DNA from: Terriglobia bacterium | Lineage (GTDB): Bacteria > Acidobacteriota > Terriglobia > Acidiferrales > UBA7541 | Assembly (NCBI GenBank): GCA_020073585.1 | Contig: JAIQEV010000060.1 | Location: 1 to 41,705 of the forward strand | DNA: 41,705 bases | Reading direction: 5' to 3' | Part shown: in pieces, positions 18,143 to 33,821 of the stretch | Layout of the letters: each line of letters opens with the position of its first letter | Numbering within the stretch: the first letter of the stretch is position 1 | Translations under genes and position numbers: made by a program | The notes under the pieces: generated by a model | Seen by the model: the letters and a program-made list of their open reading frames with translations, nothing else | What the model was told of the DNA's origin: nothing | Database searches by the model: none

Positions 18143-18171
18143 TTGACAACGCCGCATCTCTTGCGTATAGT
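18143..18171 (+). promoter_or_regulatory. 16S rRNA promoter (sigma70 type)
   Basis: A perfect TTGACA (18143-18148), a 17-nt spacer and TATAGT (18166-18171). The start point would be near 18179, some 190 nt before the 16S gene, leaving room for the boxA and processing stem. Confidence 0.85.
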
Positions 18172-18371: not shown

Positions 18372-19802
<1,431 letters not shown>

Positions 19803-20795: not shown

Positions 20796-20813
20796 TGCTA
20801 GGAAAGAAAAAGA

Positions 20814-20844
20814 GCCGCTGGAGAATTCAGCGGCCCTTTTGTTT
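20814..20844. terminator. Bidirectional terminator, copy B of the GAGAATTC-loop type
   Basis: GCCGCTG (20814-20820), loop GAGAATT, CAGCGGC (20828-20834), then a T-rich run on the plus strand. The A-rich lead-in (AGAAAAAG) gives a T-run on the minus strand too, so it can end both the DinB transcript and the RCC1 transcript arriving from the right. Confidence 0.75.
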
Positions 20845-20909: not shown

Positions 20910-22145
20910 TCACGGATTCTTCGCGGCGTTCTTCGGAAAGATGCGCGTTGGGCTCCGGAACAACCCGGACTTGGGATGCGACCCGGCGGCTAGAATGGAA
21001 CCATCGCGCAAGATGAAATAGGAACGGTTGTAGCCGGTGGCGATCGCGGCCACGGAAGAAACATGGGGCGTCTGCAGGCCCTTGGGATATTCGAGCTGGT
21101 TGCCCAGGCCCATGGAAGCGCCGCCGTTCCAACCCCACGCGCGGACCGTACCATCGGCCAGCAGGGCCAGGGCAGAGGTGCCCGTGGCGATGGCCACAGC
21201 GTTGCGCAGTCCCGGAATCGCAACGGGCTTGGCGGTCCAATGGGCGTCGGTGTCGGTGTGAATGGAAGGGCTGCGCGAGCCGGCGAAATGGACACCCTCG
21301 AAGGCGCCGCTGCCCCAAACGCGGACGGTGCCGTCGCGCATGATGGCCAGGGCGTAGTCCAGGCCGGCGGAGATCGCGACGGCCGAGTCAATGCCGGGCA
21401 CGGTCACGGGAACCGTGCTGCCGGAGATGACCTCGTCGCCGATTTCGCCGTCCTTGTTTCTGCCCCAAGCCTTGATGGTGCCATTTTCGAGCAAGGCCAG
21501 AGCGAAGCCGCCGCCCGCGGAGATGGCCTTGACGCCGGCGAGACCGGGAATCGCTTGCGGCCGCCAGAGATAGGCTCCGTTGTGGCTTTCCGGGTTTTTG
21601 GGGATGGGCATGCCCAGACCAAAGCCGTCACTGAAAGAGGCGCCCCAAGTGAGAACCGTGCCATTGTCGAGAAGGGCCATGGCGTAGCCGCCCTCCTCCG
21701 GCATGGCCAACTGGCGCACATGCGCCAGACCGGGAACCCGTGTGGGCCGGGGCACGGGCTTGGGGTATTCCCAGGCGGAAGGGACGATGCCCAGGCCAAG
21801 CTGGCCCGAGTGGTTGTCGCCCCAGGCCAGGACGGTGCCGTCGGCGCGCAAGAGCAGGAAGGAGCCGCCGCCCACGGCGCCGTCCACGGCGTCGGTGACG
21901 CCGGGGAGGAGCAGGCCGTCATCGGAAAACTCAGGAACGCCGAGGGTCCCCTGTCCCAACTGGCCGCTCTTGTTCTCATGAGCGAAGACTAGGACGGAGC
22001 CGGAGGGCTGGATGATCATCATTACCGACTGGCCGGCCAGGACCTTGGGGAGACGGGAAGTCTCCGCAGCGGCGTCGAGGGAAGGACACAATGCCGCCGA
22101 GAGAAGAAACAAGCAAAACCAGGAAAACCCGCGTGCAGCAAGCAT
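20910..22145 (-). CDS. Exported RCC1-repeat beta-propeller protein (copy 1)
   Basis: 411 residues. The signal peptide ends near residue 26 (LDAAAE). The rest is a chain of RCC1-type blades of about 50 residues each with the signatures NGTVLTWG, DGTVRVWG and DGTVRAWG, and spacing that suggests one seven-bladed propeller. In eukaryotes RCC1 is a Ran exchange factor; in bacteria RCC1 domains are mainly protein-binding scaffolds and the role here is unknown. The ribosome-binding site is GGAGGTG, 5 nt before the ATG. It lies 81 nt after copy 2 and is its clear paralogue, ending with the same NRSYFILRDGS-type block. Both end close to a Pro/Asn tail. Confidence 0.88.
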   Translation of the reverse strand: MLAARGFSWFCLFLLSAALCPSLDAAAETSRLPKVLAGQSVMMIIQPSGSVLVFAHENKSGQLGQGTLGVPEFSDDGLLLPGVTDAVDGAVGGGSFLLLRADGTVLAWGDNHSGQLGLGIVPSAWEYPKPVPRPTRVPGLAHVRQLAMPEEGGYAMALLDNGTVLTWGASFSDGFGLGMPIPKNPESHNGAYLWRPQAIPGLAGVKAISAGGGFALALLENGTIKAWGRNKDGEIGDEVISGSTVPVTVPGIDSAVAISAGLDYALAIMRDGTVRVWGSGAFEGVHFAGSRSPSIHTDTDAHWTAKPVAIPGLRNAVAIATGTSALALLADGTVRAWGWNGGASMGLGNQLEYPKGLQTPHVSSVAAIATGYNRSYFILRDGSILAAGSHPKSGLFRSPTRIFPKNAAKNP

Positions 22146-22225
22146 TCAGACACCTCCGATGAAAACTATCGCCGGGATTTTCCGGCGCCTTGCCAGGCCA
22201 GGAGAAAAGCTTTTTCGGCGGCCGC

Positions 22226-23473
22226 TCACGGATTCTGCACGCTGTCCTTTTTCAGGAGCGGCATGGGGACCAGGTACAGCTTTCCCTCACTGATGAGTTG
22301 AGAGCCAGCGGCCATCACCGAGCCATCGCGCAAAACGAAATAGGAGCGGTTGAAGCCGGTGGCGATGGCGGCCACGGGAGGAACCCGGGCGGTCTTCAAG
22401 CTCGCGACGTATTCGATGCGGTTGCCCAGGCCCATGGAACCGAAACCGTTGTAGCCCCACATGCGCACGGAGCCGTCGGCAAGCAGGGCCAGGGCGGTGG
22501 CGCCGGCGGAGATGGCCACCACGTTGCGCAGTCCCGGGATGGCAACGGGTTTGGCCGTCCAGGGGTAGTTGGAGTCGGCGTGAATGGAGGGGCTGCGCGC
22601 GCCGGCGAAATAGGCGGAATCGTTGGTGCCGCTGCCCCAGACGCGGACGGTGCCGTCGCGCAGCAGAGCCAGGGCGTAGTCCTCGCCGGCGGAAATGGCG
22701 ATGGCTGAATCGATGCCGGGCACGGTCAGGGGAACCGGGCTGTCGGAGATGACCTCGTCACCGACCTGGCCGTACTTGTTTTTGCCCCAGGCCTTGACAG
22801 TGCCATCTTCGAGCAGGGCCAGGGCGAAGTCGTGGCCTGCGGCGATGGATTTGACGCCGGCGAGATTGGGGATGGGCTGGGGCTTAAAGACGCGGGTTCC
22901 GCCGCGAGTGTCCGGGATATTGGAGAGGGAGGATCCCAGGCCGAGCTGGCCGTTGAAAGCAGCGCCCCAGGAGCGAACCGTGCCGTCCTCGAGGAGGGCC
23001 AGGGCGAAGGTGCCGTTATCCGCGATGGCTAACTGGCGGACATGCACCAGGAAGGGAACGCGTGTGGGATGGGGGACAGGACTGGGGTCATCGCCGGACT
23101 TGGGGTTAATGCCGAGAGCGAGCTGCCCGGCGCTGTTCTTGCCCCAGGAGAGGACGGTGCCGTCGGCGAGGAGCAGCAGGAAGGAGCCGCCGCCCACGGC
23201 GCCATCCATGGCGCCAGTGACAGCCGGCAGGGGAATGCCTAATTCGGCGGAGGGAGGAGTGCCGAGAGTCCCCTGACCCAGCTCGCCGTAGTCGTTGCTC
23301 TTGGCGAAGACCGTGACGGCGCCGGAGGGCAAGATGATCATCCCTTCCGTCGCGCCGGCGACGACCTTGGGCAGGCGGGGTGAATCGGCGGCAATGGCCG
23401 GGGCCGGGAAAAGGCAAGGCGCGGCCAGGAAAAGAATCAAGCAGGTTAAGAAGAAATTGCGTACGGAAAGCAT
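22226..23473 (-). CDS. Exported RCC1-repeat beta-propeller protein (copy 2)
   Basis: 415 residues from ATG 23473 (MLSVRNFFLT), which has AAGGAAGG about 7 nt upstream; a longer frame at 23542 has none. The signal peptide ends near AIAAD (residue 28). The blades parallel those of copy 1 in order and spacing, including SRSPSIH-like, PWTAKPVAIPGLRN and NRSYFVLRDGS segments, so the two arose by tandem duplication. It starts 70 nt after the TPR gene stop and is followed by copy 1, in one direction, which suggests an operon. No enzymatic motif is visible; a binding scaffold on the cell surface is a reasonable guess. Confidence 0.88.
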   Translation of the reverse strand: MLSVRNFFLTCLILFLAAPCLFPAPAIAADSPRLPKVVAGATEGMIILPSGAVTVFAKSNDYGELGQGTLGTPPSAELGIPLPAVTGAMDGAVGGGSFLLLLADGTVLSWGKNSAGQLALGINPKSGDDPSPVPHPTRVPFLVHVRQLAIADNGTFALALLEDGTVRSWGAAFNGQLGLGSSLSNIPDTRGGTRVFKPQPIPNLAGVKSIAAGHDFALALLEDGTVKAWGKNKYGQVGDEVISDSPVPLTVPGIDSAIAISAGEDYALALLRDGTVRVWGSGTNDSAYFAGARSPSIHADSNYPWTAKPVAIPGLRNVVAISAGATALALLADGSVRMWGYNGFGSMGLGNRIEYVASLKTARVPPVAAIATGFNRSYFVLRDGSVMAAGSQLISEGKLYLVPMPLLKKDSVQNP

Positions 23474-23542
23474 GCACACACCTTCCTTGAGAAAATGAGC
23501 AAAAATGATCCGGCGTCTTGCGCGGCCGGGGACCAGCGGCAA

Positions 23543-25744
23543 TTATTCGCCGTGGCCTCCCATGCCGCTGAGAATGCCTTTGCCGGCCAGGGAAGCGCTG
23601 GAGTTCCAACCCCAGCGGCCTTCGACGCCGGCCTCGACGGAGAAGGGCAGGTCGCCGACGTTGACGGATTCGCCGTGGCCCACGTGGACTTCCGTGGGGT
23701 CGGTGCCCTCGCGGAAGTTGACGCCGGCTTCGGCTTTGGCCATGACCAGCGGGCCGAAATCGGTGACGCCGGTGTCGCCATATTCGATGAAGGCGCCGAC
23801 GCCGGCCTTGGCCTCGATCTTGACGGGGCCGGCCTCCAGGCCTTTGCCGATGCCCGCGGAGAGCATGATCTCGACACTGCCGCTGATGATTTTTCCGGTA
23901 TTCAAGTCCTCGACGTGCGTGCCTTGGACGAAAATAGCGTCGTATTCCAGCTTGGATGTGTTGCAGTCAAATTCCGCGTTGACCAGGAACATGTTCAACT
24001 GGATGCGCGTGTCGCAGTGCATGTCATCGTAGCTTTGCAGCTTGTCCGGGGACGGTTTCTTGTTGTCCCTGGATTTTCTGGGGATGCATTTCCCCGCTTC
24101 GGCATGGGCCAGGGAGAGCAGGGAGTTGAGATAGGTGCGCTTGGCGTCCGCTTTCGCGGCTTCAAACGCATCCTTGCTGCTGACCATATACTGGACGAAG
24201 TAGGTGTCTTCGTTGATTTTGCGCATTAAGTTGTGCATCTGCTCGTTCTGAATCTTTTCGTTGATGGTATTGGCGGTCTGGAGAAATCTGCTGTTTTCCG
24301 CGTTGTAGTCCGCGCACATGGCCTCATCATCGTCTACCTCATCGCCTTCTCCGCCTTCCCGGTTATACTTTTGATAAATCGCGTTGAGGGCCGCGAGGTG
24401 CGCTCTTTTGAACTCGCCGATCTTGGCGCGCTCCTGCTTGGCGCTCTCGGCGCGGAGTTTTTCCTGGATTTCCATCTGTTCGTCGAACGCTTTCATGGCC
24501 AGGGTGGCCTTGGGGGCAAACGGGGGCAAGACCAGCGGAATGGGGTTGCCCCCGGCCTGGGCCATGGCCATGGCCTTCTGCAACATCTGGTTTCTATTCT
24601 GCTCTGCCGGGGCCTCGTGAGCGCGCTTCTCCGCCTCCAATTGACGGATCAGGTTGCGCACGCCGTCCTTGAAGCTTTCCCACCGGGGAGCCAGAGCGTC
24701 GGACTCCTCGACGCTGTGGGAGTAGGCGGGAACCTGGTAGAGGTGGAGGGCGAGCGGGTCCTGGGGCATGTGAAAGTTCCAGGCGATGTCGTCCTTGTCC
24801 ACAGGGGAGCCGAGTTGGCGGAGCTTGTTCACCTTTTCGTTGCTGAAGGCGGAGCGGATGGAACGCTTCATGGCGCTGACGGCGGCTTGCTTGTTTCCCT
24901 TGGATTCTTCGATCAGGCACATGGTGAAGTTGGCTTGCGAGTGATAGCCGAACACCTTGATGGCGGCGTTCAGATACTTTTCCGCTTCCGGCAAATCGCC
25001 CAGACCAAACCAGGCCTGCCCCATGTTGTTCAGGACGGTGCTGTTCTGGGGGTATTTCTGATTCAGTTTCTGGAGCAGGGGCAAAGCGGCTTCTTCCTTG
25101 CCCGCCATGGTGAGGAAAGCGGCGTAGTTATTGAGGTGGTCCGGATTGGCGGGGTCTTCGAGCGAGGCCCTGCCCATGAGGTAGAGCGCGGGCCCCAGGG
25201 CTCCCTTCATCCAGAGTCCGCTGGCGGCGGCCGCCAGGCCGGCCGCTCCGGGGTAGCGGGTGCGGAGCTTCTGAGAGACCTCCTCGGCGAATTTTCTGGA
25301 TTTTGGAGAGAGTCTTTGTTCCACCGCGGCGCTAGTCTGCTGCAGAAAGGGTTTCAGCTCCGCGTCCGTCAGGATTGATTTCCGGAGCTTGGCAATGCGG
25401 GCAGCATCTTTCCTGGGGATGGCCGATGTGTCCAGGTCCCCTGGTCCGGCATGTTTCATGACCTCCTTGGCTTTCTTCGTTTTTTCGTCGAGGCCCATCT
25501 GTTTCATCATCTGCTCTATCTCGGAACTTGCCTGTTTGGCCTTCTCCATCTCTTTTTGGAGTTCCTCGTTGTCCGGATATTCGCCGGCTGCCGGCTTCTT
25601 GGTGACAGGCTTCTTGGCGGCAGGTTTTTTCTCGGCGGGGGGCTTCTCCTGCGGAGAGTCTCGCTGTGCCATAGCGGAGGAGGGCAGCAGGATGCCGAGA
25701 AGGAAGATAAGCAGGATCGGTGGAATCCAGGATTGTTTGCTCAT
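23543..25744 (-). CDS. Exported TPR-repeat protein (733 aa)
   Basis: From ATG 25744; a longer frame (to 25966) is open but looks non-coding. The signal peptide ends at AMAQ (about residue 26). A Lys/Pro-rich linker (KKPAAKKP) is at about 39-55, a helical region at 60-145 and TPR units at about 165-275 (AAFLTMAGKEEAALPLLQKL, LNNMGQAWFGLGDLPEAEKYL). The middle is long helical and charged. The C-terminal 100 residues are Gly-rich with repeated strand-like segments (VEIMLSAGIGKGLEAGPVKIEAKAGVG). No catalytic motif is known to me. It is first of three consecutive minus-strand genes with the RCC1 pair, so all three probably act together outside the cytoplasm. Confidence 0.75.
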   Translation of the reverse strand: MSKQSWIPPILLIFLLGILLPSSAMAQRDSPQEKPPAEKKPAAKKPVTKKPAAGEYPDNEELQKEMEKAKQASSEIEQMMKQMGLDEKTKKAKEVMKHAGPGDLDTSAIPRKDAARIAKLRKSILTDAELKPFLQQTSAAVEQRLSPKSRKFAEEVSQKLRTRYPGAAGLAAAASGLWMKGALGPALYLMGRASLEDPANPDHLNNYAAFLTMAGKEEAALPLLQKLNQKYPQNSTVLNNMGQAWFGLGDLPEAEKYLNAAIKVFGYHSQANFTMCLIEESKGNKQAAVSAMKRSIRSAFSNEKVNKLRQLGSPVDKDDIAWNFHMPQDPLALHLYQVPAYSHSVEESDALAPRWESFKDGVRNLIRQLEAEKRAHEAPAEQNRNQMLQKAMAMAQAGGNPIPLVLPPFAPKATLAMKAFDEQMEIQEKLRAESAKQERAKIGEFKRAHLAALNAIYQKYNREGGEGDEVDDDEAMCADYNAENSRFLQTANTINEKIQNEQMHNLMRKINEDTYFVQYMVSSKDAFEAAKADAKRTYLNSLLSLAHAEAGKCIPRKSRDNKKPSPDKLQSYDDMHCDTRIQLNMFLVNAEFDCNTSKLEYDAIFVQGTHVEDLNTGKIISGSVEIMLSAGIGKGLEAGPVKIEAKAGVGAFIEYGDTGVTDFGPLVMAKAEAGVNFREGTDPTEVHVGHGESVNVGDLPFSVEAGVEGRWGWNSSASLAGKGILSGMGGHGE

Positions 25745-25843: not shown

Positions 25844-25864
25844 ATTATGAAATACAAGCACGCA
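25844..25864 (-). promoter_or_regulatory. Upstream element shared with the 26026-27132 gene (TPR copy)
   Basis: On the minus strand TGCGTGCTT is followed after 6 nt by CATAAT, about 100 nt upstream of the TPR start. The same arrangement with a 5-nt gap lies at 27220-27239. CATAAT resembles a -10 box, but no good -35 hexamer stands 17 nt upstream, so any promoter role is only a suggestion. Confidence 0.4.
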
Positions 25865-25923
25865 GGCGGGCAAGGGGAACGGAACCTGTAGTGCGCGGTG
25901 AGAACCCCCCGGGCTGCTGCGGG

Positions 25924-25964: not shown

Positions 25965-26000
25965 AAGAATAAAAGGCCGCTCCGGCGGATCGGAGCGGCC
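25965..26000 (-). terminator. Intrinsic terminator of the 26026-27132 gene
   Basis: A perfect 10-bp stem, GGCCGCTCCG (25975-25984) and CGGAGCGGCC (25991-26000), with a 6-nt loop. On the minus strand it is followed by TTTTATTCTT (complement of 25965-25974). It starts about 25 nt after the stop. Confidence 0.85.
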
Positions 26001-26025
26001 TCGTTCTTCCTCTGGAATAAGATGG

Positions 26026-27132
26026 CTATTTTTCGGGACTGGGGTTGATGAACTGGCTGGGATCCCCTTGCACGCGGGTATAGCCCGCGGGAATCTCGAA
26101 GAGGCTGCCGCTGAGCGTGTCGCTCGAGAAGGAAGTGACCTCGATGGTCATTTCGATCAGGGCATTGGGATTCGCGGGCGGCGGCGGATTCTTGCTGTCC
26201 TGAGCCGCAGCTTCCTCTTCTTCCTGCTTCTTCTTTTTCTTGCCGAAGAGCCCGCCGAGGCCTTTGACCATCGCGCCGGAAGCAGATGTGGGAACGTTTT
26301 CATGGGAGGAGGCGCTCGACTTTGCGGGCGGGGCGCTGCTCGCAGCCGCTCCGTCCGGCGCGGCTACGCTCATGCTCACGTACTGCAAGAGCGGCATGCC
26401 TTTGAAATCGTCCTGGTTCTTCTGCAATTCTCCCATGCTTTTGGACAAGCGCGGATCGACGCGGATAGTGGACGGGGGGACCCAGTCGGTTTCCTTGGCC
26501 ATGAGGCGATAGAAGCGCATCAGCTCTTCATGCCCGGGGACCTTCGGGGTCACCCAGGAATCGATATCCGTGATGACCGCCGCTTTGGCCGACGCGGCGG
26601 AAGGTTTTCCGGTCTTCTGGTCCACCGGGGTCGCTTCCTCCTCCATTTCCATTTTTACCTTTACCTCATGGGTCGCCAGCCCCAGGATCTCGCGGCTGCC
26701 CTCGCCGGCCGTGGCGCTCACCTTCACATTCAGTTTGGCATTGGCGTCCGGCTGTTTGGCGGCCTGTTTCGCGCGCGCCTGGGCATCTTCCTGAGCCTTT
26801 TTCATCGCGGCTTTCAGCTCCTCGAAGGTGATCTGGGAATAGGCCTTGTTCTGCGAATCGAGTTCGATGATGCGGCGGCCGTCGAGGTCAATGATGCGAA
26901 TCTTGCCGTCGGAGCTTTCCCTGCGCAGCTTGTTGCCCTTGAGAGAAAGAGTGGTGGTGACCGGCTTCATCGCCTGGGAGGCTTGCTTATTGAACATGCC
27001 CACGGTCTTCATCATGCTCTTCATGGCTCCGCCGGTGATCTTCGAGGTTTCGGTGTACTGGAAGTCGGCCCGCGCGGGAACCGCCCCGAGCACCAGCAGA
27101 ACACTTAGAACTACCGCAAGAATAGCTTTCAT
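26026..27132 (-). CDS. Exported protein of unknown function, beta-rich (368 aa)
   Basis: Start ATG 27132 has a GGAG box 8 nt upstream; a longer open frame exists upstream and is a shadow. The signal peptide ends near ARAD (residue 23). The mature N-terminus reads FQYTETSKITGG, then KLRRESSDGKIRIIDLDGRRIIELDSQNKAYSQITFEELK, which recalls outer-membrane lipoprotein-sorting or DUF4412-like domains. Coiled helices rich in Ala/Lys/Gln (about 115-145) and a Ser/Ala-rich stretch (about 275-300) precede GLGGLFGKKKKKQEEEEAA, a strongly basic-then-acidic patch. The final 60 residues are strand-like. It is possibly a periplasmic or outer-membrane protein; function unknown. Confidence 0.65.
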   Translation of the reverse strand: MKAILAVVLSVLLVLGAVPARADFQYTETSKITGGAMKSMMKTVGMFNKQASQAMKPVTTTLSLKGNKLRRESSDGKIRIIDLDGRRIIELDSQNKAYSQITFEELKAAMKKAQEDAQARAKQAAKQPDANAKLNVKVSATAGEGSREILGLATHEVKVKMEMEEEATPVDQKTGKPSAASAKAAVITDIDSWVTPKVPGHEELMRFYRLMAKETDWVPPSTIRVDPRLSKSMGELQKNQDDFKGMPLLQYVSMSVAAPDGAAASSAPPAKSSASSHENVPTSASGAMVKGLGGLFGKKKKKQEEEEAAAQDSKNPPPPANPNALIEMTIEVTSFSSDTLSGSLFEIPAGYTRVQGDPSQFINPSPEK

Positions 27133-28843: not shown

Positions 28844-30175
28844 ATGGACGAAGCCCTCGACGTGCACCGCCTGCACTTCGCATTCACAGTCACGTTCCAC
28901 TACATCTTCCCGCAACTGACCATGGGGCTGGCGCTGCTGCTGGTCTATCTGAAGACCAAGGCGCTGCGCACCGGCGATGAGCACTACAACCGCGCGGCGC
29001 GTTTCTGGGCGCGAATTTTCGGGATCAATTTTGCGCTGGGGGTGGTGACGGGCATCCCGATGGAATTCCAGTTTGGCACCAACTGGGCAGAATTTTCGAA
29101 GAGCGCCGGCGGCGTCATCGGACAGACGCTGGCGATGGAAGGCGTCTTTTCCTTTTTCCTGGAGTCCAGTTTTCTCGGCCTCTTTTTGTTCGGGGAGAAG
29201 AAACTCGGCCGGGTGGGGCACTGGTGGGCGGCCTTTCTGGTGTGGCTGGGATCGTGGTTGTCGGGGTATCTGATCGTGGCCACCGATGCGTGGATGCAGC
29301 ACCCGGCAGGGTACACCCTGGGGCCGGACGGCCAGTTCCAGCTCGCCAGCTTTTGGGGATTGGTGGTGAACCAGTGGGCGCTGTGGCAGTACGCGCACAA
29401 CATGGTGGGCGCGGTGCAGACCGGGTGCTTCGTGATGGCCGCGGTCGGCGCGTTCTATCTGCTGACCAGCCAGCATGAGCAGTACGCACGGACATTTGTG
29501 AGAACGGGCGTGCTGGTCGGAGCCATCGCCGCGGCGCTGCAGATCTTCCCGACGGGGGACCTGCAGGGCCGGATGATTGCCAAGCACCAGCCGCCGACGC
29601 TGGCGGCCATGGAGGGGCTGTTCGTTTCCGAGCAGGGCGCGCCGCTGGTGATCCTCGGCCAGCCGGACGTGCAAAAGCGCCGCCTGGACAACCCGCTGGT
29701 GGTGCCCCGGGCGCTGAGTTTTCTCACCTATCAAAGCTGGAGCGCGAACGTGAAAGGGCTCGACAGCTTCCCCGAGGAGCAGTGGCCGGACAAGATTCCC
29801 CTGCTCTATTACAGCTATCACGTTATGGCCGGGCTCGGAACGATTTTCCTTGCGGTGATGGTCCTGGCGGCGTGGCTGTTGTGGCGCGGCACCTTGTACA
29901 CCTCCCGCGCCATGCTCTGGACGCTGCTGCTTTGCGCGCCGCTGCCGTATATCGCCAATACCGCGGGATGGATGACGGCGGAGTTGGGCCGCCAGCCCTG
30001 GCTGATCTACGGCCTGATGCACACGGCGAAGGGCATCTCGCCGCGGGTGGCCGCGGGGAATGCGTGGTTCACGCTGCTGGGGTTCATGGGAATGTACGCG
30101 GTGCTGACGATCCTGTGGCTGTTTCTCATCCACCACGAGATCGAACGCGGGCCGGAACCGGCCGTAGCGGAGTGA
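28844..30175 (+). CDS. cydA: Cytochrome bd-type oxidase subunit I, short Q-loop
   Basis: 443 residues. With CydB it oxidises quinol and reduces oxygen to water at high affinity, without proton pumping. Haem ligands in the E. coli scheme are present: H19 (FHYIF), H185 (QYAHNM) and M328 (YHVMAG). Glutamates E99 and E107 (AMEGVFSFFLESSF) line the proton path. Quinol-site residues K247 and E257 lie in AKHQPPTLAAMEGLF. The protein is about 80 residues shorter than E. coli CydA because the C-terminal part of the Q-loop is missing, as in the short-loop subfamily. The start follows a GAGGAGG box. It precedes cydB by 12 nt. No cydX or cydDC gene is seen in the window. Confidence 0.95.
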   Translation: MDEALDVHRLHFAFTVTFHYIFPQLTMGLALLLVYLKTKALRTGDEHYNRAARFWARIFGINFALGVVTGIPMEFQFGTNWAEFSKSAGGVIGQTLAMEGVFSFFLESSFLGLFLFGEKKLGRVGHWWAAFLVWLGSWLSGYLIVATDAWMQHPAGYTLGPDGQFQLASFWGLVVNQWALWQYAHNMVGAVQTGCFVMAAVGAFYLLTSQHEQYARTFVRTGVLVGAIAAALQIFPTGDLQGRMIAKHQPPTLAAMEGLFVSEQGAPLVILGQPDVQKRRLDNPLVVPRALSFLTYQSWSANVKGLDSFPEEQWPDKIPLLYYSYHVMAGLGTIFLAVMVLAAWLLWRGTLYTSRAMLWTLLLCAPLPYIANTAGWMTAELGRQPWLIYGLMHTAKGISPRVAAGNAWFTLLGFMGMYAVLTILWLFLIHHEIERGPEPAVAE

Positions 30176-30187
30176 GGAGGAGCCGAA

Positions 30188-31240
30188 ATGGAAACGATCT
30201 GGTTCTGCCTCGTCGCGATCATGATCGCAATGTACGTGCTGCTCGACGGATTCGACCTGGGAGCGGGCGCGATTCACCTGCTGGTGGCCAAGACGGACGC
30301 CGAACGGCGGCAGGTGCTGGCGAGCATCGCCCCGGTGTGGGACGGCAACGAAGTGTGGCTGCTGGCCGCGGGCGGCGTTCTGTACTTCGCCTTTCCCGCG
30401 CTGTACGCCTCGGGCTTCAGCGGCTTCTACCTGCCGCTGATGATCGTGTTGTGGCTGCTGATCCTGCGCGGGAGCGCCATCGAATTCCGCAACCACATCC
30501 AGAGCGCCATCTGGGCTCCGCTGTGGGATGTCTTGTTCTGCGCCTCGAGCCTGCTGTTGGCCGTGTTCTACGGCGCGGCGCTTGGCAACGTCGTGCGCGG
30601 CGTGCCGCTGGATGCCAGCGGATACTTTTTCGAGCCGCTGTGGACGAATTTCCGGCTGGGCGAGGAGACCGGGATCCTGGACTGGTACACGATCCTGGTC
30701 GGCGTGCTGGCGCTGGCCGCGCTGGTGATGCACGGCGGACTGTGGGTGCAGTGGAAAACCCGGGGCGCGGTGAACCGGCGCGCGGGCCGGGTGGCGGGAC
30801 AGGCGTGGGGAGCGGTGATTGCGCTGACGGCGCTGGTGACCGCTGTGACTTTGCGCGTGCAGCCGCAGGTGGCCCTGAATTTCCGGACCTGGCCGTGGGG
30901 CTATTTCCTGCCGCTGCTGGCGGTGGCGGGTCTGGCCGGGGCGGGTTGGAACCTGGTGAGAAAGAATGAGCGCATGGCGTTCTTTTCCTCGTGTCTGTAC
31001 CTCGTGGGGATGCTGACGAGCGTGGTGTTCGGGGTGTACCCGATGGTGCTGCCGGCGCGGAATCCGGTGCATGCCCTGACGATTGCGAACGCCAAAGCTG
31101 GCGCCTACGGCCTGAAGATCGGGCTGGTCTGGTGGGTCATCGGGATGATCCTGACGGCGGGATATTTCACATTCGTGTACCGGTCGTTTGCCGGAAAGGT
31201 CGAGGCCGAAGAGAAGTTACAAGATTCCTGGGGCGAATGA
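30188..31240 (+). CDS. cydB: Cytochrome bd-type oxidase subunit II
   Basis: 350 residues with eight or nine hydrophobic segments. The N-terminal signature YVLLDGFDLGAGAIHLL (about residues 16-32) and PVWDGNEVWLLAAGG (50-64) match the CydB family. Length fits the usual 335-380. CydB carries no haem and stabilises the oxidase. A GAGGAGG box precedes the ATG, and only 12 nt separate it from cydA, so they form an operon. The protein ends in an acidic tail (EAEEKLQDSWGE). Confidence 0.95.
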   Translation: METIWFCLVAIMIAMYVLLDGFDLGAGAIHLLVAKTDAERRQVLASIAPVWDGNEVWLLAAGGVLYFAFPALYASGFSGFYLPLMIVLWLLILRGSAIEFRNHIQSAIWAPLWDVLFCASSLLLAVFYGAALGNVVRGVPLDASGYFFEPLWTNFRLGEETGILDWYTILVGVLALAALVMHGGLWVQWKTRGAVNRRAGRVAGQAWGAVIALTALVTAVTLRVQPQVALNFRTWPWGYFLPLLAVAGLAGAGWNLVRKNERMAFFSSCLYLVGMLTSVVFGVYPMVLPARNPVHALTIANAKAGAYGLKIGLVWWVIGMILTAGYFTFVYRSFAGKVEAEEKLQDSWGE

Positions 31241-31547: not shown

Positions 31548-33821
31548 ATGGGGACGCTGATCAAAGCCGGGCGGTACGAAATTATCGGGGAACTGGGCCG
31601 CGGCGCCATGGGAGTCGTCTACAAGGCCATGGACCCGGTGATCGGGCGCACCGTGGCGGTCAAAACGATCCGTCTTTCCGCGGAAGGTTCGGGGCTGTCG
31701 CGGCCGGAGATGCTGCAGCGCTTCCAGACGGAAGCGCGCGCCGCGGGCCTGCTGACGCACCCCAACATCGTGGTGGTCTACGACGCGGGCGAAGAAGACG
31801 GCCTGTACTACATCACCATGGAACTGGTGGAGGGCAAGAGCCTGCAGGCCCTGCTGGAGTCGGGACAGAGATTCCCGCTGGCGCGGGTGCTGCGCATCCT
31901 GGAGCAGACCTGCTCGGCGCTGCAGTTCGCGCACGAACGCAACGTGGTGCACCGCGACATCAAGCCCGCCAACCTGATGATGACCGCCGACGACATCGTG
32001 AAGGTGACGGACTTCGGGACCGCCAAGATCCTGCAGTTCGGCAGCACCCAGCAGACCGCGCACGTCATGGGCACGCCCAGCTACATGTCCCCGGAACAGG
32101 TGAAGGGCAAGGCCGTGGACGGGCGCTCGGACATTTTTTCGCTGGGCGTGATGTTCTACGAGATGATGACCGGGGAAAAACCCTTTCCGGGGCAGAACAT
32201 CACCACGGTCATCTACAAGATCGTGAACGAGGAGCCGCAGGCGCCGCGGCAACTTGATCCTTCCATCCATCCCGGGATCGAAGCGGTGATCCTGAAGGCG
32301 CTGACCAAAGACCCCAACGCCCGCTACCAGAGCTGCTACGAGATGCTCGAGGATTTGCGCAGGTACCGCTCGGTGGGCGGCAATGCGGACTCCACCATGG
32401 TGCTGAGCGCGGCTCCGGCCGCGGGTGGCAACCGGGCCCCGCGCGCCGCGGTCCCGCCGCCGCGGGGGCCTGCGGCCCAGGCGCCGGCGCTAGCCCCGCC
32501 ACTGCGCCTGCGCCCGGATACCAGCCCGGCGAGCCCCGCAAGTCCGGCGCCAGGGCCCGCCGTGCACCGCGCCGCACCGGCCGAGCCGCCGCAAAAGCCG
32601 AAGAGCATGCTGGGGACGATGCTTGCCGCGCTGTTTCTTCTCGGGGTGATCGTTTTCGGCGGCTACCGTGTGCGCCCGTTCTTCGACGACCTGATGCAAC
32701 GGCGCGAGGCGCAGCGCGCGGACGCAAAGAATCCCGCAGCGGCTCTCACGTCGCCCGCGTCCGTGGAGAACCCCTCCGCGGAGAAGGAAGCAACTTTGCC
32801 AGCGCCTCCCCCCGGGGGTTCCGACACCGGCGCTGTCGAGATGAAGCCCGTGGCGAGTCCGGCTGCGAGCGCGCCGCTGAAGAGATCCGGAAATCCCCTG
32901 AGCCCCGGCGCAACGGAATTCCAGGGGCGCATGGAGGATGCCATCGCGCAAAAGGGTCTAACCGGCCGTGTGAAATTGGACGGCACCGGAGACACCCTGA
33001 CGCTGACCGGGCGGCTGCGCCCCCGCGAGCATCGCGAACTCCTGAAGGAGCTGCGCTCCGCGCCGAAGGGCGTGCAAATCGTGGACGACATCAACTATGA
33101 CGATACGGCGGAGGGCGCGCCGGGATCGGAAGCCGCCGGGGAACATCCCATACCGCTCGCCGGGCATGGCGCGGTTCATGTGGTGACGGATGTGATCGGG
33201 GCCACGGCGACCTTGCGCGGCGCCACCGGGCACGTGGTCAGCGATTGCCAGACGCCGTGCAGCTTCAACAATCTGCCGCCGGCGCCCTACAACCTGGAGG
33301 TCAGCAAGGACGGCTATCAGCCGGTGCGCGCGAATCTGGAGGTGCGTTCCCAGGCCGTGATTGACAAGAAGTTCGCGCTCGAATCGCTGCTCCAGGGTAT
33401 TTATGTGCGCAGCCGGCCCCCGGGCGCGGATGTGTTCGTCAATGGCCAGAAGCAACCCGGGAAAACGCCCCTGAAACTGCCCATTGCTGCGGGCCAGTAC
33501 GATCTGGTCGTGAGCCTGGAAGGCTATGAGCACCATTCCGAACAGGTGCAGATCAAGGACAACATTCAGACGCAATTGGATGTCACGCTCACGCCACGCT
33601 CCTACCATCCTGCCTGGGCCAACGTGGAAACCCGCCCGCCCGGCGCGGAGATCCTGATCGATGGTAAGCCCACCGGCAAATTTGCCCCGGCGCGCGTCGA
33701 GATGACCGCAGGAAACCATTGGGTATCCTTCAATCTGAGCGGCTATCTCCCAGTCAAGAAGCTCGTCGGCGTGCAAGAAGGCCAGACCGTGGAGGTCAGC
33801 GCCGAGCTAAAGGCCCGTTAA
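31548..33821 (+). CDS. Membrane-anchored Ser/Thr protein kinase with three PEGA-type repeats
   Basis: 757 residues. A PknB-type (Hanks) kinase domain spans about 9-275 with the Gly-rich loop GELGRGAMGVVY, ATP-binding K39, HRD (135-137) in VHRDIKPANLM, DFG (155-157) and APE-like SPEQ (181-184). It should be active. A Pro/Ala-rich linker (about 295-350) is followed by one transmembrane helix (354-374). The outside part has a BON-like region (about 457-517), then PEGA-type domains near 545-612, 615-683 and 688-752, the last two with the RPPGA-motif (RPPGADVFVNGQ, RPPGAEILIDGK). Such kinases may sense envelope signals; the target is unknown. It probably forms its own transcript. Confidence 0.92.
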   Translation: MGTLIKAGRYEIIGELGRGAMGVVYKAMDPVIGRTVAVKTIRLSAEGSGLSRPEMLQRFQTEARAAGLLTHPNIVVVYDAGEEDGLYYITMELVEGKSLQALLESGQRFPLARVLRILEQTCSALQFAHERNVVHRDIKPANLMMTADDIVKVTDFGTAKILQFGSTQQTAHVMGTPSYMSPEQVKGKAVDGRSDIFSLGVMFYEMMTGEKPFPGQNITTVIYKIVNEEPQAPRQLDPSIHPGIEAVILKALTKDPNARYQSCYEMLEDLRRYRSVGGNADSTMVLSAAPAAGGNRAPRAAVPPPRGPAAQAPALAPPLRLRPDTSPASPASPAPGPAVHRAAPAEPPQKPKSMLGTMLAALFLLGVIVFGGYRVRPFFDDLMQRREAQRADAKNPAAALTSPASVENPSAEKEATLPAPPPGGSDTGAVEMKPVASPAASAPLKRSGNPLSPGATEFQGRMEDAIAQKGLTGRVKLDGTGDTLTLTGRLRPREHRELLKELRSAPKGVQIVDDINYDDTAEGAPGSEAAGEHPIPLAGHGAVHVVTDVIGATATLRGATGHVVSDCQTPCSFNNLPPAPYNLEVSKDGYQPVRANLEVRSQAVIDKKFALESLLQGIYVRSRPPGADVFVNGQKQPGKTPLKLPIAAGQYDLVVSLEGYEHHSEQVQIKDNIQTQLDVTLTPRSYHPAWANVETRPPGAEILIDGKPTGKFAPARVEMTAGNHWVSFNLSGYLPVKKLVGVQEGQTVEVSAELKAR

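Follow-up and report, generated by a model that had tools for sequence, protein, structure and literature searches.

In a 41,705-nucleotide stretch of DNA from a Terriglobia bacterium (contig JAIQEV010000060.1, here called the window), we examined three consecutive minus-strand genes that encode a protein with tetratricopeptide repeats (TPR) and two RCC1 propellers, a and b. These genes were best explained as a clade-specific, probably co-transcribed row of exported, non-enzymatic binding or scaffold proteins, in which the propellers would have diverged for different ligands. We put the probability of this reading at about 0.5. The row combines known folds and one unnamed part in a new arrangement, and it was found in two related genomes. 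The window's contig is contig 40 in a 113-contig assembly of 4.03 Mb. Transcription runs from the TPR gene through propeller a to propeller b, in the order listed here.

23543..25744, minus strand: TPR, helical and C-terminal beta-rich protein of 733 residues, probably exported (Pfam, fold model, N-terminus by eye)
22226..23473, minus strand: RCC1-type seven-bladed propeller copy a (RCC1a) of 415 residues, probably exported (Pfam, model)
20910..22145, minus strand: RCC1-type propeller copy b (RCC1b) of 411 residues, probably exported (Pfam, identity to copy a)

An earlier reading of the letters by a model (the original prediction) had described this set as three consecutive genes for exported proteins, with no enzyme encoded between them and with paralogous propellers made by tandem duplication. 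The positions and lengths of the genes were confirmed, and no enzyme gene was found between them. In all three proteins the N-terminus contained a hydrophobic stretch together with an AxA-like site. Such signal-peptide-like N-termini (charged, hydrophobic, AxA-like) were present in 9/9 proteins examined, four of the TPR family and five RCC1 proteins, as judged by eye and not by a signal-peptide program. No lipobox cysteine was seen by eye in the three proteins. These features suggested that export of the three proteins is likely. The twins were 60% identical across 415 columns, and the spacers preceding propeller a and propeller b were partly alike. Both observations fit the tandem duplication that had been proposed.

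Both propellers exceeded the Pfam cut-offs of the RCC1 models. For the RCC1-like domain PF25390, the twins gave 197.1 and 190.7 bits against a cut-off of 150 (E = 6e-56 and 7e-58). The scores were 116.3 and 135.3 bits for PF13540 (cut-off 22) and 75.4 and 116.9 bits for PF00415 (cut-off 21.7). Seven PF00415 matches were found in the 4.03-Mb assembly at E up to 0.01, all within the twin genes. The model of propeller a was seven-bladed, with a predicted local distance difference test (pLDDT) value of 82.3 and a predicted template modelling score (pTM) of 0.84. Its nearest solved fold was UVR8 (Z = 46.5, 1.9 Å, 342 residues), followed by domains of HERC2, HERC1 and RPGR. As modelled, propeller a is an RCC1/UVR8-type seven-bladed propeller. 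The fold results cover copy a, and copy b was placed by sequence.

The TPR protein was more varied than its description in the original prediction as a 733-residue TPR protein. TPRs were present, but they were confined to approximately residues 110-300, and the remainder was helical and beta-rich. It opens with a signal-peptide-like start and a lysine/proline-rich linker, continues with about four TPRs and then long helices, and closes with a beta-rich C-terminal domain. TPR_19 (PF14559) matched at 28.8 bits (cut-off 25) and PF13428 at 23.7 bits (cut-off 23.5), and the remaining listed TPR models fell below their cut-offs. In the fold search, residues of about 165-301 matched OGT and designed TPR proteins with Z of about 15. 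The whole-protein model had a mean pLDDT of 50.1, based on a 4-sequence alignment; residues of about 111-260 were confident, and the C-terminal strands at 604-710 were of low confidence. The C-terminal beta-rich part gave no Pfam or NCBIfam match and is without a name in the libraries searched. When its profile was compared by sequence with solved structures, the one hit was an antibody chain at E = 0.29, which was not meaningful. In a comparison with two distant members of the family, identity was 54-55% for the TPR part, 45-48% for the C-terminal part and 23-30% for the helical middle. The TPR protein matched one of 72,556 records in a plasmid collection, over residues 197-312 only, and 0 of 50,697 records in a phage collection.

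The layout of the locus was consistent with one transcription unit. The following signals were recorded within and around the row.

25973..26002, minus strand: terminator-like hairpin of 12 pairs, separating the TPR gene from the gene upstream of it (pattern scan)
25844..25873, minus strand: promoter-like TTGCCC-18-CATAAT ahead of the TPR gene (pattern scan)
23481..23487, minus strand: AGGAAGG ribosome-binding-like site of propeller a
22170..22187, minus strand: small terminator-like hairpin of 6 pairs with a poor T tail, between the propeller genes (pattern scan)
22151..22157, minus strand: GGAGGTG ribosome-binding-like site of propeller b
20808..20840, minus strand: terminator-like hairpin of 13 pairs, 3' of propeller b; the contig of the sister species ends before it, hence nothing to compare

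The intergenic spacers were 69 and 80 bases, each with a ribosome-binding-like site, and they were similar in the sister species (G008). Propeller a starts with an ATG preceded by the AGGAAGG site. All 12/12 pairs of the upstream hairpin were kept in G008: in two pairs both sides had changed, and in a third only one side had. In the promoter-like site, CATAAT was kept, and the -35-like hexamer had a one-base gap. Against G008, the long blastn match stops at 25874. These data pointed to an apparent transcription unit of three genes, which are probably co-transcribed and are bracketed by hairpins. The gene at 26026-27132 was left outside the unit because of the intervening hairpin.

The same row was found in the sister species. 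A scan of 84,980 species, which detects close relatives only, gave one locus (JAIQGC010000056.1). On contig 146 of G008, the order of TPR gene, propeller a and propeller b was identical to that of the window, with 82% identity for the TPR protein and 85% for propeller a. Synonymous divergence between the window and G008 was about 0.4-0.5. The ratio of nonsynonymous to synonymous divergence (dN/dS) was 0.20 in the TPR gene and 0.21 in propeller a. Two parts of propeller b gave 0.28 and 0.20, and the nearby cydA gave 0.11. The row genes are thus under purifying selection, with dN/dS of about 0.2. Between the twins, dN/dS was 0.58. Propeller b agreed with its G008 counterpart in 285/332 residues and the twins with each other in 61%, so the duplication predates the split of the window and G008.

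The differences between the twins were unevenly placed. Among the fixed differences (n = 59), 35 fell at the 118 four-way sites of the BC and DA loops and 4 at the 54 sites of the AB and CD loops (Fisher p 0.0008), with loops grouped after the table had been inspected and faces taken from strand order, not from coordinates. The other 20 were in strands. Such a distribution would be expected of twins in which one face is preserved and the opposite one altered, and the divergence of the BC and DA loops suggests different ligands for the two propellers.

From these results, the course of events under our preferred reading may be outlined. A propeller would have joined an older TPR/beta-rich protein, and tandem duplication would have followed before the window and G008 split. 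The genes would be transcribed together, and their products would leave the cytoplasm through Sec-type signals and act outside it as binding proteins. The TPR protein, whose family also exists without RCC1, may serve as an envelope scaffold. The twins would retain their fold, with most of their divergence in the BC and DA loops, which are taken as one face, and each would bind a different ligand. A common pathway for the three proteins would be expected.

Several points weigh against this reading, beginning with the grouping of the loops described above. The 20/59 fixed differences in strands included strand C, with 8/31. Propeller a orthologues also varied more in the BC and DA loops, at 24/138 sites versus 6/64 in the AB and CD loops (p 0.20, not significant), and a general looseness of the BC and DA loops explains part of the pattern. 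In G008, a frameshift close to the end of the contig interrupts the second propeller (L026 1-1138). The last bases of this contig repeat an inner segment, and an assembly error, a blade duplication or decay could each account for this. The twin row itself was found in two closely related genomes only. For the transcription unit, the promoter-like pattern did not exceed chance level (3 found versus 2.1 expected). Terminator-like sites were numerous, and a match to this pattern alone says little because the scan found 18 with 11.1 expected. The small hairpin at 22170..22187 sits between the propellers, where it could dampen the expression of copy b. The TPR family also occurred without RCC1 neighbours, in a second G008 gene (contig 19, 41% identical) and in G484 (36% identical), a genome with no RCC1_2 match.

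This last point was followed through the distribution of both families. The TPR family was present in three genomes, namely the window's own (one gene), G008 (two) and G484 (one). These came from 61 near genomes (4 matched; G040 and G048 were set aside because their matches were generic TPR ones), 396 phylum genomes (own genome alone), 95 order genomes searched by the C-terminal part (4 matched; G458 was dropped as weak) and 399 class genomes (3 matched). Matches dropped from the count were G000 contig 13 (E = 0.0076, 27%), G458 (E = 0.002, one internal stop), and G040, G048 and G008 contig 128 (26-27%, in the TPR region and, for G048, in part of what precedes it too). By the C-terminal part, G339 (E = 6e-5), G404 (E = 1e-4) and G427 (E = 0.008) were dropped. 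In the 396-genome phylum sample, the C-terminal model matched only G000, G339, G404 and G427, and it matched 0/6 order genomes having RCC1_2 without the TPR family. The alignments of G339, G404 and G427 were inspected. In G404 (L057 7112-11950, minus strand), about 106 residues ending a 1612-residue frame aligned weakly with the beta-rich part, and this frame end could be a true remote relative placed in another setting.

Among the 95 order genomes, 8 carried RCC1_2 and 3 carried the TPR family; 2 had both, 6 had RCC1_2 alone and 1 had the TPR family alone. The association gave a Fisher p of 0.018, which is not independent evidence because the two co-carrying genomes are close relatives. Seven other RCC1 loci (G046, G216, two in G248, G381, G389 and G008 contig 91) had one RCC1 gene each and no TPR-family neighbour, as read by eye from translations. 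Apart from G008 contig 91, these loci came from five genomes, out of 11 others in which RCC1 matched at E 1e-30; G057 and the 6 order genomes with RCC1_2 and no TPR family were left out. The single RCC1 propeller of G008 contig 91 (L028 8350-10355, minus strand) has a signal-peptide-like start and lies 23 bases behind an OmpA-family gene, which encodes a protein of envelope type.

The TPR-family gene on G008 contig 19 adjoins an FtsY-like gene (named by eye). Its divergent neighbour has a TPR start and a borderline TEN_NHL match (27.4 versus 27.1 bits), and NHL was below its cut-off. The divergent neighbour in G484 has the same TPR start and no propeller match. These two TPR-family genes that lack RCC1 neighbours, at L027 4771-6342 (plus strand) and L055 4681-6609 (minus strand), thus each face a divergent gene. 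The divergent genes share the same TPR-like N-terminal part and differ in their C-terminal parts, one being NHL-propeller-like.

These distributions bear first on a possible, though less favoured, explanation. The three proteins might be made from one transcript and exported but have independent functions, with the propellers having landed behind the TPR promoter by chance and then duplicated. The TPR family without RCC1 neighbours in G484 and on G008 contig 19, with its TPR and C-terminal parts kept at the identities given above, is in line with this, as are the seven RCC1 loci without a TPR-family neighbour. However, the order was kept in G008 across the synonymous divergence noted above, and hairpins bracket the unit.

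A rather unlikely explanation is that the TPR protein and both propellers form one dedicated stable complex, in which the TPR superhelix holds the propellers. The shared unit and the same order in G008 would agree with it. TPRs often hold short C-terminal peptides. A short tail ending in Asn-Pro was found in both window propellers and in propeller a of G008, the three propellers of the window type with known ends, and it was absent in six other RCC1 proteins (alignment A5). This tail is the only concrete pointer to docking on the TPR protein. However, the TPR part was equally well kept in G484, which has no RCC1_2 match, so conservation of the groove cannot be due to RCC1 alone. The original prediction had viewed the genes as one TPR-RCC1 system, and this was only partly borne out. 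It had named separation of the genes in relatives as a refuting result, and they do lie apart in G484, on G008 contig 19 and at the seven RCC1 loci. What stood of the system view was the apparent unit, its order in G008 and the joint presence of both families in 2 of 95 order genomes, but not an obligate pairing of TPR and RCC1. The suggested role in surface adhesion found no specific support, as the Pfam matches included no adhesin family. The original prediction knew of no described system with this composition, and no description of a TPR-RCC1-RCC1 composition was found among the open papers listed in our search.

It is doubtful, but conceivable, that the TPR/beta-rich family acts in the envelope as a platform on which exported propellers dock interchangeably. 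The twins would attach through their Asn-Pro tails and expose distinct faces to distinct ligands. The instances would be the RCC1 twins in the window and on G008 contig 146, and the divergent TPR and NHL-like protein on G008 contig 19. At the fourth family locus, in G484, the divergent neighbour had the same TPR-like start and no propeller match.

We consider it improbable that the propellers resemble BLIP-II in being secreted to inhibit an enzyme made by competitors. BLIP-II is a secreted RCC1-group propeller from soil bacteria (PMC9218822), and it matched propeller a by sequence (E = 8e-11) and by fold (Z = 25.8, 2.5 Å, 241 residues). UVR8, HERC2, HERC1, RPGR, RCC2 and RCC1 matched better, although the 273-residue length of BLIP-II also lowers its Z. 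A eukaryote-directed role is very unlikely: the propellers have RCC1 repeats in common with Legionella effectors (PMC7157520), but those proteins use a type IV system whereas the window propellers have signal-peptide-like N-termini, and the sister genome is titled as an environmental metagenome-assembled genome.

Two other origins were tried and rejected. For a defence system, 0 PADLOC families were found at E up to 0.01 for 3/3 proteins. For a phage origin, the PHROGs hits of the twins carried RCC1 names, with one weak tail-protein hit for copy a. A search of viral_contigs with propeller a gave one remote locus (L046, 27% identical).

The surroundings of the row were also recorded. The upstream gene at 26026-27132 (minus strand) encodes a 368-residue protein with a signal-peptide-like start. 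The whole protein had no Pfam match, and its last 276 codons gave nothing close to the NCBIfam cut-offs. A relative stands at the same place in G008 (62%), and others were found elsewhere in 3/44 other genomes searched. A full-length 16S rRNA gene at 18372-19800 (plus strand) stands alone, with a promoter-like TTGACA-17-TATAGT at 18143-18171 near it; no tRNA or other Rfam match at gathering level was found within the 41.7-kb window. A link between the 16S gene, 1.1 kb away, and the row was considered and rejected, as nothing ties them. Cytochrome bd oxidase subunits I and II lie at 28844-31240 and 31548-33821 (both plus strand), and after them comes a protein kinase that carries PEGA domains.

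To our knowledge, bacterial RCC1 propellers are numerous and their targets are mostly not known, save for BLIP-II and a few effectors. Twins of which one side seems preserved and the other altered offer a tractable way to learn what such a propeller binds. The TPR/beta-rich protein adds a lineage-restricted family with a C-terminal part unnamed in the libraries used.

We compared the row with known systems. PilW and PrsT are TPR scaffolds of the envelope. Their models TIGR02521 and TIGR02917 matched the TPR stretch at 35.5 and 30.8 bits, far under the equivalog cut-offs of 154 and 312.2. These matches were confined to the TPR part of the window protein, which adds the C-terminal beta-rich part, which is without a match. 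Secreted RCC1 propellers are already known from BLIP-II and MXAN_0889. BLIP-II shares the RCC1-group propeller fold (PMC9218822), secretion in the window being judged only by eye from the N-terminus. It differs in that the window precursor has 415 residues, compared to a 273-residue chain, in that its match is weaker than those of UVR8 and the HERC domains, and in that the window propellers have no known target. MXAN_0889 of Myxococcus xanthus is an RCC1 repeat protein in outer membrane vesicles, and its authors count this RCC1 propeller among those proteins for which an extracellular role is predicted; no TPR partner is mentioned in the part of the source consulted (PMC4158809), and the likeness is one of description. 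RCC1 proper is the Ran exchange factor, whereas the window genes are bacterial with a signal-peptide-like start, and Ran would be unexpected. In family terms, the propellers belong with the RCC1/BLIP-II group (PF00415, PF13540, PF25390), with both twins over the Pfam cut-offs and a full-length UVR8 fold match for copy a. The window propellers are set apart from this group by their signal-peptide-like start, their tandem pairing, their place behind a TPR gene and their Asn-Pro tail.

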